64,000 nt of DNA. Source: an uncultured Oscillospiraceae bacterium. Its GTDB lineage: Bacteria; Bacillota; Clostridia; Oscillospirales; Oscillospiraceae. The position numbers and the translations under genes were made by a program. The notes below the pieces were generated by a model that was given only the letters and a program-made list of their open reading frames with translations, did not search any database and was not told the origin of the DNA. Position 1 is the stretch's first letter; each line of letters opens with the position of its first letter. Positions 8,676-40,483 of this stretch are shown here, in pieces. The stretch covers positions 16,562 through 80,561 of the forward strand of contig CALXDP010000010.1 in NCBI GenBank assembly GCA_944387095.1, read 5' to 3'.

Positions 8676-8684
8676 CTGCGCGCA

Positions 8685-8797
8685 TCTTCTTCCATCCGGA
8701 CTATACCGTTGGTCCCGGAGTTTCACCGAGTCAGCCGCGCATACGCGCGGGTCGCGGACTTTACCGCCAGTGGGGAATTCCACCCCGCCCTGAAGAC
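8685..8797 (-). ncRNA. FMN riboswitch (RFN element)
   Basis: The minus strand shows all RFN landmarks in order: CTTCAGGGCGGGGTG, AATTCCCCACTGGCGGTAAA, GTCCGCGACCC, GCTGACTCGGTGAAACTCCG, GGACCAACGGTATAGTCC and the closing GGATGGAAGAAG that pairs with the 5' end. It senses FMN and controls the downstream ribU pair. Confidence 0.97.
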
Positions 8798-8821
8798 GTC
8801 TATTTGGTTGTTTCCGATCCC

Positions 8822-26549: not shown

Positions 26550-26592
26550 CCGGGCGGCGGAAAGGGCGCGCTTTCCGCCGCCCGGCTTTTTC
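26549..26592 (+). terminator. spoIIA operon terminator
   Basis: GCCGGGCGGCGGAAAG and CTTTCCGCCGCCCGGC, 16 bp perfect, then TTTTT. Confidence 0.92.
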
Positions 26593-26628
26593 CGGATTTC
26601 ATTTATTTGTGTAATTTCCCTGATTTTG

Positions 26629-26657
26629 TTGACATGAAACAGGTTTTGCTGTATAAT
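26629..26657 (+). promoter_or_regulatory. Consensus promoter of the AT-rich cassette
   Basis: TTGACA, exactly 17 bases, TATAAT: a perfect vegetative promoter, 60 bases upstream of the 10-codon ORF. Confidence 0.9.
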
Positions 26658-26718
26658 ATTTTTGTAAGCTTTTAGATTTTCATATATGGTAAAACCGGTT
26701 GCAAAGGAGAGGGTTCCA

Positions 26719-26751
26719 ATGGCTTATTCTCATTCTTCCTTTATGTACTAA
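26719..26751 (+). CDS. 10-residue peptide ORF
   Basis: Encodes MAYSHSSFMY then TAA. The start is 9 bases after AAAGGAG (26703-26709), as good a ribosome site as any in the window. The peptide is neutral to hydrophobic, with Ser/Tyr/Phe and no charge except His. It could be a leader peptide controlling the secreted protein gene 40 bases downstream, or a product in its own right. It has no signal sequence or processing site. Confidence 0.5.
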   Translation: MAYSHSSFMY

Positions 26752-26790
26752 CCCAACCATTACGGCTGCGACTAGTAAGGAGGGCGCCAT

Positions 26791-28086
26791 ATGAAATCAT
26801 CACGAAAAGGCTTTCGAATTTTTGTTCTGGCAATAACCCTTTTCCTATGTATTGGGCTAAACTTCGCATCCGCAACCTCTGGTACATTGACATTTCCTTA
26901 CTCTACATCTCTATCTGCAAGCGCCGCATCTTCTTCGCTGTTTCAAGTAAGACTTTTGGGTATCGTAGATCCGGATGGAGGTGACCGTACCTCTTGGCAA
27001 TCATCAGCTTCTAGCTATTTACGTAATATAAATAATTCCTCAATTTCTCGCTATACTGCTTTCACTGCAAGTCAGTTCTTAACTTATCTAAAATCCTCCG
27101 ATTTTTTTGTTGTGCATACACACGGCAATCAAACTGAACTAAAAGCTGTTGCTTCAAACGGAAATATATCTACCGTACGGCTTTCTGACATCACTTCATT
27201 GAGTAACAGTTCACTTGACGATTTGGATGTGGCTTTTATCGCCGCTTGCTTATGCGGCAAAGGTGGTAGTTCCGCAAGCAACATAATAAACGCTATTTTT
27301 CAGAAAGGTGCTAGATGTGTAATTGGTTATAAAGACAGTGTCTATACCAACGCTAATTACATTATGATAAAGTCATTCTGTCAAGCGATCGGCTCTGGGT
27401 ATACGATAAGTGCAGCCCTTGCTTTTGGTGATACAATGGTATTATCACAATATGGTTCAAGTGGGAAAACTAATGACCGCCTTGTGCGTGGTGATACAAG
27501 CACAAGTTTCGTTGACCGCTCTGTTATTCTCGGTCTAACGAGCGACACGGTTTCCGATGTGATTTATCTGACCGATTCCGCTGGTGACACTGTTGGCTTC
27601 TTTGATCCTTCAAAACTATCAGCTACCTCTGATGCCCCCAAAGTCAATGTTGCTTCAGAATTCCCAGGGAATCATGCTCAATCGTCTATCATTTATCCAT
27701 TTAATCAAGATAAATATGCTTTAGTTGAAAATTATTATACTGCTGATACTGGGCTGTGGACAAAAATTTATAATTATAGCATCAATGGCATAAAAACCAG
27801 TGATTCCGTTATCTTTGTTCAGAATAGTAGCGGTGATATTGTATCCTATATGCATAACAATGCAGGAGCATTTGATGACATTTCTATTGACAATATTGCT
27901 GTCGATGCAGCAATTTCCCAACTTGAACAACAACTATCCAGTGCCGAAATGAGTGGTTACTCCATTGCAGATATTCGGCTTGTCATTCAGAATGAGGCCC
28001 CTGCATTTCGTTTTTCTATTCAAACTAGTTCCACGGCTGAAATTCAAGATTACTACGTTCCCCTGACAGGAGGTTCTACGCTATGA
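26791..28086 (+). CDS. Secreted protein with caspase/CHAT-like His-Cys domain
   Basis: 431 residues. A signal peptide (basic KSSRKGFR, hydrophobic core, cut near ASA, residue about 28) sends it out of the cell. Residues about 50-215 look like a caspase-fold (C25/CHAT) peptidase: VVHTHGNQ offers a catalytic His at 111 before Gly, and VAFIAACLCG a Cys at 153 (or 155), followed by the family's NIINAIFQKGARCVIGY and a helix GYTISAALAFGDTM. The remaining 200 residues are unassigned and Ser/Asn-rich. Composition is distinctly AT-rich compared with the flanking spoIIA genes, indicating transfer. Good AAGGAGG site. The lipoprotein gene overlaps its stop. The fold assignment rests on motif reading only. 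Confidence 0.65.
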   Translation: MKSSRKGFRIFVLAITLFLCIGLNFASATSGTLTFPYSTSLSASAASSSLFQVRLLGIVDPDGGDRTSWQSSASSYLRNINNSSISRYTAFTASQFLTYLKSSDFFVVHTHGNQTELKAVASNGNISTVRLSDITSLSNSSLDDLDVAFIAACLCGKGGSSASNIINAIFQKGARCVIGYKDSVYTNANYIMIKSFCQAIGSGYTISAALAFGDTMVLSQYGSSGKTNDRLVRGDTSTSFVDRSVILGLTSDTVSDVIYLTDSAGDTVGFFDPSKLSATSDAPKVNVASEFPGNHAQSSIIYPFNQDKYALVENYYTADTGLWTKIYNYSINGIKTSDSVIFVQNSSGDIVSYMHNNAGAFDDISIDNIAVDAAISQLEQQLSSAEMSGYSIADIRLVIQNEAPAFRFSIQTSSTAEIQDYYVPLTGGSTL

Positions 28087-28544
28087 AACGGACCCGATTT
28101 CTGGCTATTTTGACCGGCTTCGTCCTGCTGGCGGGATGCACCTCCCCCGCCCCTACCGGTTCTGGGCCTCCCGCCCTTGCAGACAATCCGCTTTTTGAGA
28201 ACGCTGAAGAAGACGTCCGCACCTTCTCTGTAACCCGGCTGGCTGGCAGCCTCATCCCAGATGAATATCTAGAAGGGGAAGTGGAGCTCTACGCCACCCA
28301 GGACGCCGCCCTGGTCCGGGAGCTGATGGCCATGTTCAACGGCTGGAACCCGGAGGACCACGATGATTTCGGCGGGGTTGACGGGCCTCCCAGCCACGCC
28401 GTCCATTTTGGAAATGAAGTGACGATCCTATATTTCTACCATGCGGGGGAGCCTTACCCCTGCATCATAGACGGCACATACTACTGTCTTCCCCAGGCGT
28501 TTGGGCGGTATTTAGACAATCTTTTGGCCGAGTATGAGCTATGA
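28083..28544 (+). CDS. Small lipoprotein coupled to the secreted protease-like gene
   Basis: 153 residues. Lipoprotein signal LLAGC with lipid-attached Cys19, then a Pro/Gly linker and a compact domain of unknown family (EVELYATQDAALVRELMAMFNGWNPEDHDDF and YFYHAGEPYPCIIDGTYYCLP, with two Cys that could pair). The ATG overlaps the preceding stop (ATGA), so the two proteins are probably made in ratio. Its base composition is closer to the host than the preceding gene. An inhibitor or membrane tether for the protease-like protein is an inference. Confidence 0.7.
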   Translation: MKRTRFLAILTGFVLLAGCTSPAPTGSGPPALADNPLFENAEEDVRTFSVTRLAGSLIPDEYLEGEVELYATQDAALVRELMAMFNGWNPEDHDDFGGVDGPPSHAVHFGNEVTILYFYHAGEPYPCIIDGTYYCLPQAFGRYLDNLLAEYEL

Positions 28545-28588
28545 CCTATAACCTATGACCATGGAAAAACTGCCTGAACAGGAATCTC

Positions 28589-28658
28589 TTTCAAATTCCT
28601 CCATTCCGTACTATGATGTTGATACCGGGCGGAGAGGGGCGACCTTCCGGCCCTCTCC
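28589..28658 (+). promoter_or_regulatory. Orphan promoter-plus-hairpin, copy 1
   Basis: TTTCAA, 17 bases, TATGAT, then a GGAGAGGG...CCCTCTCC hairpin. The arrangement and wording (CCGTACTATGAT...GGCGGAGAGGG...CTTTCCGGCC) are repeated at 30879-30949 ahead of the glycosyltransferase gene, but here no gene follows. Confidence 0.5.
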
Positions 28659-28732
28659 CCCGCCCAGTTCCCGGCCTCAGAGGAAGAGGAAAAGAGCCCG
28701 TTGCAACAAAAATTGCAAAAAACAGGCCAAAG

Positions 28733-28780
28733 AAAAAGCTGCTGAGAAACCGTCGTTTTGGCGGTTCTTAGCAGCTTTTT
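28733..28780. terminator. Bidirectional terminator
   Basis: AAGCTGCTGAGAAACCG and CGGTTCTTAGCAGCTT arms with A and T tracts on both sides, serving the lipoprotein unit and the kinase gene. Confidence 0.85.
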
Positions 28781-28785
28781 ATGCG

Positions 28786-30051
28786 TCAATTTTTTGCTTG
28801 AGTCAGAAAACTGCATTTTGCAACAGGTTCTTCTGTCTCCTCCGGCGCAACCGTCTGGGGCGGCGGCTGCTCCTCCTGCTCCTGCCGGCCGGTCTCCTCC
28901 TCCAGAGGCAGGAACACCGCAAAGGTAGTTTCCCGGTCTGCGCTCAGAGCCTGGATGGCGCCTCCGTGGAGTCGAATGATCTCCTGGGCAATGGCCAGCC
29001 CCAGCCCCGCCCCGCCGGTGCCGGTCCCCCTGGCCTCATCCCCCCGGTAGAACTTTTCAAAGATAGCCTCCAGCTTTTCCCGGGGGATGGTGGGCCCCTG
29101 GTTGCGGATGGTAACCACCGCCTTGTCCCCCTGCCGCTCAGCGGAAATCACGATCTGTGTGTCCGGATCGCTGTAAGACGCGGCGTTCTTCAACAGGTTG
29201 TTGAACACCCGGGCCAGCTTGTCTCCATCGCCCCACACCGCCAGCTCATCCCGAAGGTTCAGCACGGCGGTGTTCCCCCGCTGGGACAGCAGGGGATAGA
29301 ACTCATCGGCCATCTGCACCAGTAGATAGCTCAGGTCCACCCGCCCCTTGCTGAGCTGGATCTGCTGCAGGTTGTAGCGGGTGATCTCAAAGAATTCGTC
29401 CACCAGATGCTCCAGCCGTTCTGCCTTATTCAGGGCGATGCCGGTGTACTTCTCTCTCTGGACCGCCGGCATATCCGCCGCCTCGCCCAACAGGCTGAGG
29501 TAACCGATCACCGAGGTCAGTGGCGTCTTCAGGTCGTGGGCCAGGTAGGTGATCAGATCGCTCTTCCTGCGCTCCTCCTCCCGCAGCCGCTTCTCCTGGA
29601 GCACCGCCTTGGTCTTCAGTTCGGCCACCTGGACCCCGATCTCCCCGTACTCCTCCCGAAAGATGTCTGAGGCCTCCCGGTCGGAGGCAAGGTACTCCCG
29701 GATCTTCTCCCCCAGCTCCTGGACGGTTTCCCGCAGCTGCCTTCGTCGGGCCCGCCGGGCGGCCAGAAAGCAGAAGATCACCCAGCTCACGCACACAGCG
29801 GCCAGAGCCGCCAGCAGCAGGTATTTGATCTGCGTCCAGTCCGGCCGAACTATCACATATTCCCTGCCGCCCGGGCCCGAATAGTCCAGCGTGAGCATGA
29901 AGTTATCGTAGAACCAGTTGGACACCGCGCCCGACAGGTCCATGCCGTCCACAACAGCGAACAGGATTGCGCACATCAGCACCACAACGATCACCACCAT
30001 GCGCAGATCATATGCCCGTTTTCTCTCTTTATCCTTCAATTTTATATCCAC
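28786..30051 (-). CDS. VanS-like sensor histidine kinase
   Basis: 421 residues. Two N-terminal transmembrane helices (MVVIVVVLMCAILFAV and LLLAALAAVCVSWVIFCFL) enclose a short outer loop, then a long helical linker, the H-box LAHDLKTPLTSVIGYL, N-box NNLLKNAASYS and G boxes GTGGAGLGLAIAQEIIRLHGG. Layout and sequence fit the VanS/envelope-stress group. The start is taken as GTG at 30051 near GGGGG, overlapping the response-regulator gene by 23 bases. The acidic Gln/Glu-rich C-terminal tail is atypical. Its partner regulator is frameshifted here. Confidence 0.85.
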   Translation of the reverse strand: MDIKLKDKERKRAYDLRMVVIVVVLMCAILFAVVDGMDLSGAVSNWFYDNFMLTLDYSGPGGREYVIVRPDWTQIKYLLLAALAAVCVSWVIFCFLAARRARRRQLRETVQELGEKIREYLASDREASDIFREEYGEIGVQVAELKTKAVLQEKRLREEERRKSDLITYLAHDLKTPLTSVIGYLSLLGEAADMPAVQREKYTGIALNKAERLEHLVDEFFEITRYNLQQIQLSKGRVDLSYLLVQMADEFYPLLSQRGNTAVLNLRDELAVWGDGDKLARVFNNLLKNAASYSDPDTQIVISAERQGDKAVVTIRNQGPTIPREKLEAIFEKFYRGDEARGTGTGGAGLGLAIAQEIIRLHGGAIQALSADRETTFAVFLPLEEETGRQEQEEQPPPQTVAPEETEEPVAKCSFLTQAKN

Positions 30052-30729
30052 ACCCCCATACGGTTTTGATGTATTTGGGCTGTTCAAAGCTGTCCCCCAT
30101 CTTCTCCCGGAGATGGCGCACATGCACTGTGATGGTGCTGCTGTTCTTGGCATAGTACACGTCCCCCCAGATGGCCCGGAACAGCGCCTCGGCGTTCACC
30201 ACCTCCCCCTTGTGCTCCAGCAGGATGCGCAGGATGGTAAACTCCGTAGGGGTCAGGTTCAGCTCCCGGTCCCCCAGCAGGCACTGGTGCGCCCGCGGGT
30301 CCAGCTCCAGCTCCCCGCAGGCCAGCAGCCCGTCGGGCTGCTGTGTCTGGGCGGGATTGTAGCGTTTGTACCGCCGCAGCTGGGCTTTACCCGTGCCACC
30401 AGCTCCAGGGGGCGGAAGGGTTTGGTGACGTAGTCGTCCGCCCCTAAGGTGAGCCCTGTGATCTTGTCCATCTCCCCGTCCTTGGCGGTGAGCATGATCA
30501 CGGGGTAGTTTCCCCCCAGCTCCCGCAGGCTGCGGCACAGGGCAAAGCCGTCCATACCGGGCAGCATCAGATCCAGGATAGCCAGGTCCAAAGGCGTGCT
30601 CTGGATGCAGTCCCAGGCCTCCTGCGCCGTATAGAACTTGCACACCTCAAAGCCCTCGTTTTTCAGGTACACCTCCACCAGGTCGGAGATCTCCCTCTCG
30701 TCGTCCACAATCAGAATCCTGTCCGCCAT
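30029..30729 (-). pseudogene. OmpR/VanR-family response regulator, frameshifted
   Basis: Receiver domain intact: ILIVDDEREISD with acceptor Asp in LAILDLMLPGMDG and the conserved Lys in VTKPFRP. The reading frame then leaves the family sequence at LVARVK, and the winged-helix domain (AQLRRYKRY through TILRILLEHKGEVV, RHLREKMGD, KTVWGCGYKIEG) continues in another frame. Adding one G at about 30384 restores a 233-residue protein. Either a recent 1-base loss that inactivates the system or a sequencing error; the kinase downstream is intact. Confidence 0.85.
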
Positions 30730-30878
30730 CCACGCCCTCCTTTCTCCGGGGTCTTCCCCGGGACAACCGGTTGTACCTATACTATATCAGAATACCGCTC
30801 CCATGTCCTTGCTTTTTTCCTGTTTTCCCCTTAAGATTCTCCTAAGAGCCCCCCTCCCCCGTCCCGGAAAGAATCCTC

Positions 30879-40454: not shown

Positions 40455-40483
40455 TTGACAGGGTGGAACGAAGGCATTATAAT
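40455..40483 (+). promoter_or_regulatory. rplM-rpsI promoter and leader
   Basis: TTGACA, 17 bases, TATAAT: perfect. The leader of about 75 nt has a GCTCCG...CGGAGC hairpin (40491-40512), reminiscent of the L13 leader found in Firmicutes. Confidence 0.85.

Follow-up and report, generated by a model that had tools for sequence, protein, structure and literature searches.

The 64,000-nucleotide (nt) stretch analysed here, called the window below, belongs to an uncultured Oscillospiraceae bacterium (assembly GCA_944387095.1, contig CALXDP010000010.1, positions 16,562 to 80,561 of the forward strand). Beside its spoIIA operon the window carries a gene whose product is most likely an exported cysteine peptidase of the CHAT type (clan CD), with H111 and C153 as the putative catalytic dyad. 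In relatives, the CHAT gene is mostly followed by a gene for a surface-bound protein of a YcdB/PepSY-like family. In the window, as judged by profile comparison, the second module of such a partner is fused to the C-terminus of the CHAT protein. With slightly better than even confidence, we read the system as a CHAT protease that is secreted and kept under control by a PepSY regulator resembling a propeptide; this regulator is usually tethered in trans and is present here in cis.

The CHAT domain and its dyad

The full-length window protein matched the Pfam CHAT family (PF12770) with 25.4 bits at a gathering cutoff of 24, and residues 49-245 alone scored 28.2 bits. These residues also matched Peptidase_C25 (PF01364) with 26.1 bits (cutoff 23), whereas C25 did not match the full-length protein even at E 1. 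Among 18 family members a CHAT match at E 0.1 or better was found in 12, compared to only 3 for C25; membership in C25 did not extend across the family. By eye, the N-terminus carries a hydrophobic signal, in agreement with the signal peptide proposed in an earlier reading of this DNA made from the sequence alone (the sequence-only reading).

Conservation of the dyad was counted over 34 CHAT places in wide regions fetched around the loci. H111, singled out earlier for its His-Gly motif, was kept in 30 of the 32 copies that could be read at this column (the fragments L055 and L059 end short of it). Two cysteines, C153 and C155, had been offered as candidates for the other member of the dyad; C153, in the motif VAFIAACLCG, was kept in 31 of 34 copies, but C155, which is not a conserved position, in just one of 34. 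Three copies had D, E or A in place of the Cys, and two of the three had lost the His as well. The copies that lost one or both dyad residues are L067 (9688-10743) and L081 (8270-9469), both with an intact partner, and L073 (251-2287), at a contig end.

Searches of the PDB by sequence produced weak CHAT matches only (E 0.067 and 0.23). An AlphaFold model of the window protein, built from four sequences, had a low mean predicted local distance difference test score (pLDDT) of 44.7. Five PDB matches to this low-confidence model were found by Foldseek at E ≤ 0.001, and all five were chains of the SAVED-CHAT filament structure 8tl0 (best chain: E 5.9e-5, query template modelling score, TM-score, 0.27). 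They were followed by a low-probability match to biliverdin reductase and then by DdvA, separase and Craspase. We regard these clan-CD matches of a low-confidence model as support for, not proof of, a caspase-type fold.

The family is sparsely distributed. The two-row profile A1 found it in 22 of 394 genomes of the order (E 1e-5), and the 18-row profile A5 found it in 8 of 391 genomes of the class and in 1 of 299 genomes of the phylum (E 1e-7), with the own genome included. At closer range, the CHAT protein was present in 2 of 250 genomes of the family, again counting the own genome, which was the sole carrier among 42 genomes of the genus. In a collection of genome contigs a search with the single window protein gave no match, and profile A4 gave three loci, from genomes already matched. 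The GC content was below that of the surroundings in 28 of the 34 CHAT open reading frames (ORFs). In the relatives in Clostridia, CHAT is the C-terminal domain, often positioned behind ricin-type lectin, CBM96, Big_2 or PPC-like domains; Pfam detected no N-terminal domain of a carbohydrate-binding type in the window protein.

The YcdB/PepSY-like partner and its fusion in the window

The sequence-only reading had coupled the protease to a membrane-tethered neighbour. In relatives this part of the claim stands: a same-strand ORF just downstream matched the partner profile A2 at 28 of the 34 CHAT places, and the same rule gave an adjacent partner at 8 of the 12 class-level places found with the CHAT profile. 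The neighbour, however, is a member of a YcdB/PepSY-like family of lipoproteins or signal-anchored proteins of about 250-370 amino acids (aa), part of which appears fused in the window. As the neighbours of CHAT genes served to build profile A2, its matches at those loci are by construction; this does not apply to its absence elsewhere, to the class-level loci or to the window fusion.

Six places had no adjacent partner. One is the window itself; at L073 the contig ends, and only part of a partner is present; L075 and L076 have broken ORFs, with the partner of L076 located further on; L078 and L082 had no partner match, and the CHAT match in L082 stops at model position 164 of 197. Outside the 34 places there were three more loci: L025 (paired), L030 of genome G321 (a CHAT match, no partner) and L029 (a CHAT fragment beside a partner).

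The two families also co-occur across genomes. The partner profile matched in 27 of 29 CHAT-bearing genomes compared to 1 of 43 CHAT-lacking genomes (Fisher 2e-16), and the single match in the latter set (G303) was partial, with E 7e-9. The 43 genomes were hand-picked, not drawn at random, from high-completeness genomes without a CHAT match; G321 was not in this count. Trees of the two proteins correlated with r = 0.49 over 25 pairs, while the maximum of 5000 permutations was 0.324. For this test two short fragments and one near-duplicate had been dropped from the 28 pairs.

With respect to known families, a PF16244 (YcdB/YcdC) match at E 0.1 or better was observed in 10 of 21 partners (best E 2.9e-9). 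One of the 21 had a PepSY match and one a YycI match, near E 0.001. When ten partners were scanned singly, only that of L012 scored above the PF16244 cutoff (29.4 vs 27). The NCBIfam scan of the partners gave nothing useful, and in a sequence search of the PDB the best matches of the partner profile aligned only at the N-terminal signal region. A structure model made from three sequences (pLDDT 62.1, predicted template modelling score 0.61) has two modules, each a helix followed by antiparallel strands. Among the 50 PDB matches listed for this model, a probability of 0.99 was reached only by YycI (2o3o, E 2.6e-3) and by chain A of 3nqz (E 0.013), a chain of 175 residues in a structure of autoprocessed vibriolysin that we take to be its PepSY-bearing propeptide. 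As a side observation, L062 and L065 hold repeated copies of the partner gene and of a signal-anchored gene of ~195 aa, overlapping by 44 bases, which looks like local amplification.

In 33 of the 34 CHAT ORFs no more than 24 residues remain after the domain match, compared to 190 in the window protein. A partner profile built without the window matched residues 321-417 of this protein (hhalign probability 87.6, P 3.5e-6). The partner hidden Markov model (HMM) scored 34.0 bits on residues 236-431, compared to 10.0 bits for the best of 1000 shuffles (971 of which gave a score). In the own genome, nothing but the C-terminus of the CHAT protein matched the partner profile at E 1e-6. The first partner module was absent from residues 239-325, where the first-half model scored -0.5 bits and 631 of 1000 shuffles were as good. 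The profile comparisons show the second partner module, as predicted from the sequence, fused to the C-terminus of the CHAT protein; among the 34 CHAT places the window is the sole such fusion.

The locus and the inserted segment

The features of the locus are listed in Table 1. The cassette is flanked by the spoIIA operon on one side and by a glycosyltransferase-like gene, named by eye, on the other.

Table 1. Features predicted at the CHAT locus, with positions in the window
Feature	Position	Strand	Evidence
Sigma-A-type promoter-like site, exact TTGACA-N17-TATAAT	26629..26657	+	Motif scan of the window
10-codon ORF with Shine-Dalgarno sequence	26719..26751	+	Read from sequence
431-aa exported CHAT-type cysteine peptidase with fused PepSY/YcdB-like module (predicted)	26791..28086	+	
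CHAT/C25-like peptidase domain, residues 49-245	26935..27525	+	Pfam matches, dyad columns
H111 codon	27121..27123	+	
C153 codon	27247..27249	+	
Second module of YcdB/PepSY-like partner, fused in cis, residues 321-417	27751..28041	+	Partner HMM, hhalign
153-aa orphan lipoprotein with lipobox	28083..28544	+	
Accessory segment with CHAT gene, lipoprotein, convergent histidine kinase and response-regulator-like frame	26580..30868	.	

We compared the window by BLAST with 29 genus loci around spoIIAC, each with 1.5-kb flanks. In L091 and L092, whose SpoIIAC proteins are 91 and 89 percent identical to that of the window, the sequence runs to window position 26579 or 26566, continues for 36 or 49 nt and resumes at window position 30869. 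With the spoIIA side joined almost directly to 30869 in these two close relatives, the window carries a segment of ~4.3 kb that is absent from the same site there. In seven other loci (L100, L101, L106, L114, L115, L117 and L118) no more than 171 nt separate spoIIA from the gene at 30.98-31.0 kb; the remaining 20 of the 29 showed no window sequence beyond spoIIA within the 1.5-kb flanks. Acquisition of an extracellular protease, as proposed earlier, fits the foreign-looking composition, the export signal, the CHAT-like domain with its conserved dyad and the absence of the segment from relatives. A phage or plasmid origin was considered and rejected: tblastn at E 0.01 gave no match in two collections, and viral contigs had no match to profile A4.

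Besides the cassette, the segment contains a convergent histidine kinase (Pfam) and, beside it, a response-regulator-like frame recognised by eye. Also by eye, this response regulator (30029-30729, minus strand) is seemingly split into a receiver-like part (30259-30729) and a DNA-binding-like part (30029-30643), which seems to be a frameshift or an assembly error.

The CHAT gene has a GC content of 0.403 and a GC content at third codon positions (GC3) of 0.306, far below the values for spoIIAC (0.672 and 0.885). The lipoprotein gene, at 0.576 and 0.656, departs much less and is nearer to the GC of the host. Therefore, the foreign-looking composition is confined to the large ORF. Of the AT-rich block described earlier, the sharp break against spoIIA was confirmed, but the block covers the CHAT gene only.

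A GC-rich inverted repeat with a T-run, read by eye at 26551-26590, comes after the spoIIA operon and suggests that the CHAT gene is transcribed separately. The consensus promoter claimed for the cassette is indeed an exact TTGACA-N17-TATAAT box. The GC-rich window has two such sites, compared to none in 100 shuffles; the other one is at 40455-40483.

The 10-residue ORF downstream of the promoter box is present as described, with its Shine-Dalgarno sequence. Its role as a part of the system was not borne out. Short leader ORFs precede 7 of 26 CHAT genes vs 31 of 268 other genes (Fisher p = 0.058), where 7 is possibly an undercount, as the start-site caller overlooked some likely true starts. 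The leader ORFs of other CHAT genes differ in sequence from that of the window, a 7-residue degenerate pattern derived from the 10-codon ORF occurs once in the genome, and the reading had no NCBIfam match. We rejected the ORF as a peptide gene on these grounds, the excess of leaders not being significant. Very short ORFs with ribosome-binding-like sites were seen upstream of the CHAT genes of L057, L070 and L063; they read MGC and MGR (found by script) and MKNRLV (by eye). The folding of the leader RNA was unremarkable (z 0.87; 164 of 200 shuffles folded as well), and no Rfam family matched the CHAT locus at gathering scores. The sole Rfam match above gathering in the window was an FMN riboswitch at 8680-8801 on the minus strand.

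The start of the 153-aa lipoprotein gene overlaps the stop of the CHAT gene, just as the sequence-only reading had it; the overlap is 4 nt (ATGA), and AGGAGG precedes the start. As a conserved partner, though, this lipoprotein did not hold up: there was no match in 41 genus mates, and 393 other genomes of the order gave two weak partial matches (E 0.006 and 0.008). It had no Pfam or NCBIfam match above cutoff and no PADLOC match. Membership in the partner family was tried and rejected, with hhalign aligning the signal peptide only and the two half models scoring -2.0 and -1.5 bits. Kinship with the third gene found near some CHAT-partner pairs was dismissed too, as there was no similarity. The protein may serve as a tether or as a separate inhibitor, or it may be a bystander.

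Proposed working, rival explanations and known systems

In the working that we propose, the partner would act as a protease propeptide supplied in trans, aiding the folding of the CHAT domain, and would hold this domain inactive at the surface of the producer itself until release. In the window, the fused second module may do the same in cis as a C-terminal prodomain. The 153-aa lipoprotein would then be a lineage-specific addition, and it may supply the lost tether.

Several observations weigh against this reading. An adjacent partner is missing at L078, L082, L075, L076 and L073, as well as at L030, and some genomes have more partner than CHAT matches (7 vs 2 in G885). Two of the three Cys-less CHAT copies retain an intact adjoining partner, so the partner is maybe kept for something other than restraining catalysis. 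The correlation of the CHAT and partner trees possibly reflects just shared descent. On the structural side, the window model is of low confidence. The partner model had no PDB match at E ≤ 0.001, the TM-scores of YycI (0.28) and 3nqz (0.31) are low, and unrelated low-probability folds were ranked between them. Since the C-terminus of the window protein has no direct PF16244 match at E 1 or better, its homology to the YcdB-like family rests on the partner profile. Finally, in a paper on the YpeB/SleB pair (PMC6660665), the inhibition of SleB in vitro is ascribed to the N-terminal domain of YpeB, not to the PepSY region. The same paper reports that the part of YpeB past the first PepSY domain stabilises SleB and is required for its retention in the spore, and that no cross-link of the YpeB PepSY domains to SleB was seen (PMC6660665). 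With inhibition mapped to the N-terminal domain and no PepSY cross-link reported, the analogy would favour the role of a keeper over direct inhibition.

The main rival is a polymorphic-toxin-like antibacterial system, in which the C-terminal CHAT domain would be a toxin secreted against neighbours, the downstream lipoprotein would give immunity and the varied lectin or CBM N-termini would aim the toxin. We consider it unlikely, with the following observations in its favour. The partner lies directly downstream at 28 of 34 places, and extra partner copies occur beside the pair or away from it. Occurrence is scattered (22 of 394 genomes of the order and 8 of 391 of the class), with the GC lowered in 28 of 34 CHAT ORFs. 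An effector-like C-terminal domain behind varied N-termini and an adjacent downstream gene are both found, with the window as an exception on both counts. Caspase-like C-terminal toxin domains and a lipoprotein immunity family, Imm65, are on record in PMC3482391. However, an immunity domain fused to the toxin, as the window would have it, is odd for a toxin that acts on others, unless it is cleaved off. The closest folds of the partner model, although weak matches, are also those of regulators and of a propeptide.

Another possibility is a signalling pair, with the CHAT peptidase cutting its cognate surface lipoprotein and an envelope system sensing the cleavage or the release as a signal. The top PDB match of the partner model, YycI, is titled a sensor histidine kinase regulator, among the CHAT-bearing PDB matches is DdvA, whose title is that of a transmembrane anti-sigma factor, and the inserted segment itself contains a histidine kinase with a response-regulator-like frame. 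Still, no recurring kinase gene was noticed in 12 neighbourhoods, inspected over the first 70 residues of each ORF, and the response regulator of the window looks frameshifted; we find this explanation improbable. A plain secreted nutritional or adhesion protein, with CHAT as a binding fold only and a lipoprotein partner dedicated to it as chaperone or anchor, would account for the copies that lost catalytic residues yet kept the partner (two copies) and for the carbohydrate-binding N-termini of several relatives, but it is the least probable of the explanations, given that the dyad is conserved in most copies and that the window protein is without such binding domains.

Returning to the propeptide-like control of a secreted CHAT protease, we offer a wider version of it tentatively, as a possibility that we hold with less than even confidence. 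The loci may represent an undescribed surface system of Clostridia, in which a secreted CHAT peptidase receives its propeptide in trans as a PepSY-like lipoprotein. The cassettes, scattered and variably armed, may serve in bacterial contests or on glycan-coated surfaces, and the natural fusion in the window would reveal the regulatory contact. In the literature searched, mainly open-access, there was no paper on a CHAT and YcdB/PepSY-like pair among the matches listed, nothing on DUF4901 and nothing combining YcdB and PepSY.

Among known systems, the closest to the enzyme are the CHAT peptidases (PF12770) SAVED-CHAT and TPR-CHAT/Csx29, which are intracellular signal-activated enzymes. The likeness includes the match above the gathering cutoff, the His-Cys dyad and the PDB matches 8tl0, 8rw5/8rot and 7zoq. 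In contrast to them, the window protein has an export signal, no sensor domain was found in it, and a PepSY-like module is paired with the domain or, here, fused to it. With respect to the anti-phage defence systems with Craspase or SAVED-CHAT, the window proteins had no PADLOC match (0 of 5 proteins at E 0.1 or better). To our knowledge, the CHAT proteases known so far all act inside the cell, as switches in immunity or cell death; if true, an exported branch that has a PepSY-like keeper of its own would take the family out to the surface of bacteria. The gingipain-type C25 peptidases (PF01364) are secreted clan-CD cysteine peptidases, and the window domain scored above their cutoff as well, but this match was shared by just 3 of 18 family members and was lost in the full-length protein.

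On the side of the partner, YcdB/YcdC (PF16244, DUF4901) and YycI are its nearest relatives, by the PF16244 matches in 10 of 21 partners and by the fold match to YycI, respectively. We know of no peptidase that has been linked to YcdB/YcdC, and the proposed working, if true, would give a function to uncharacterised YcdB-like lipoproteins. The propeptide of M4 metalloproteases is FTP-PepSY. As in that propeptide and in YpeB/SleB, a PepSY-like protein here accompanies an enzyme that it may control or stabilise; on the other hand, the enzyme is of the CHAT type, and the partner is a separate lipoprotein or a C-terminal fusion. If true, the system would allow tests on a propeptide-like module that most lineages keep apart from the enzyme and that one lineage carries as a fusion; the window fusion would offer a single-chain construct for solving the regulatory contact.
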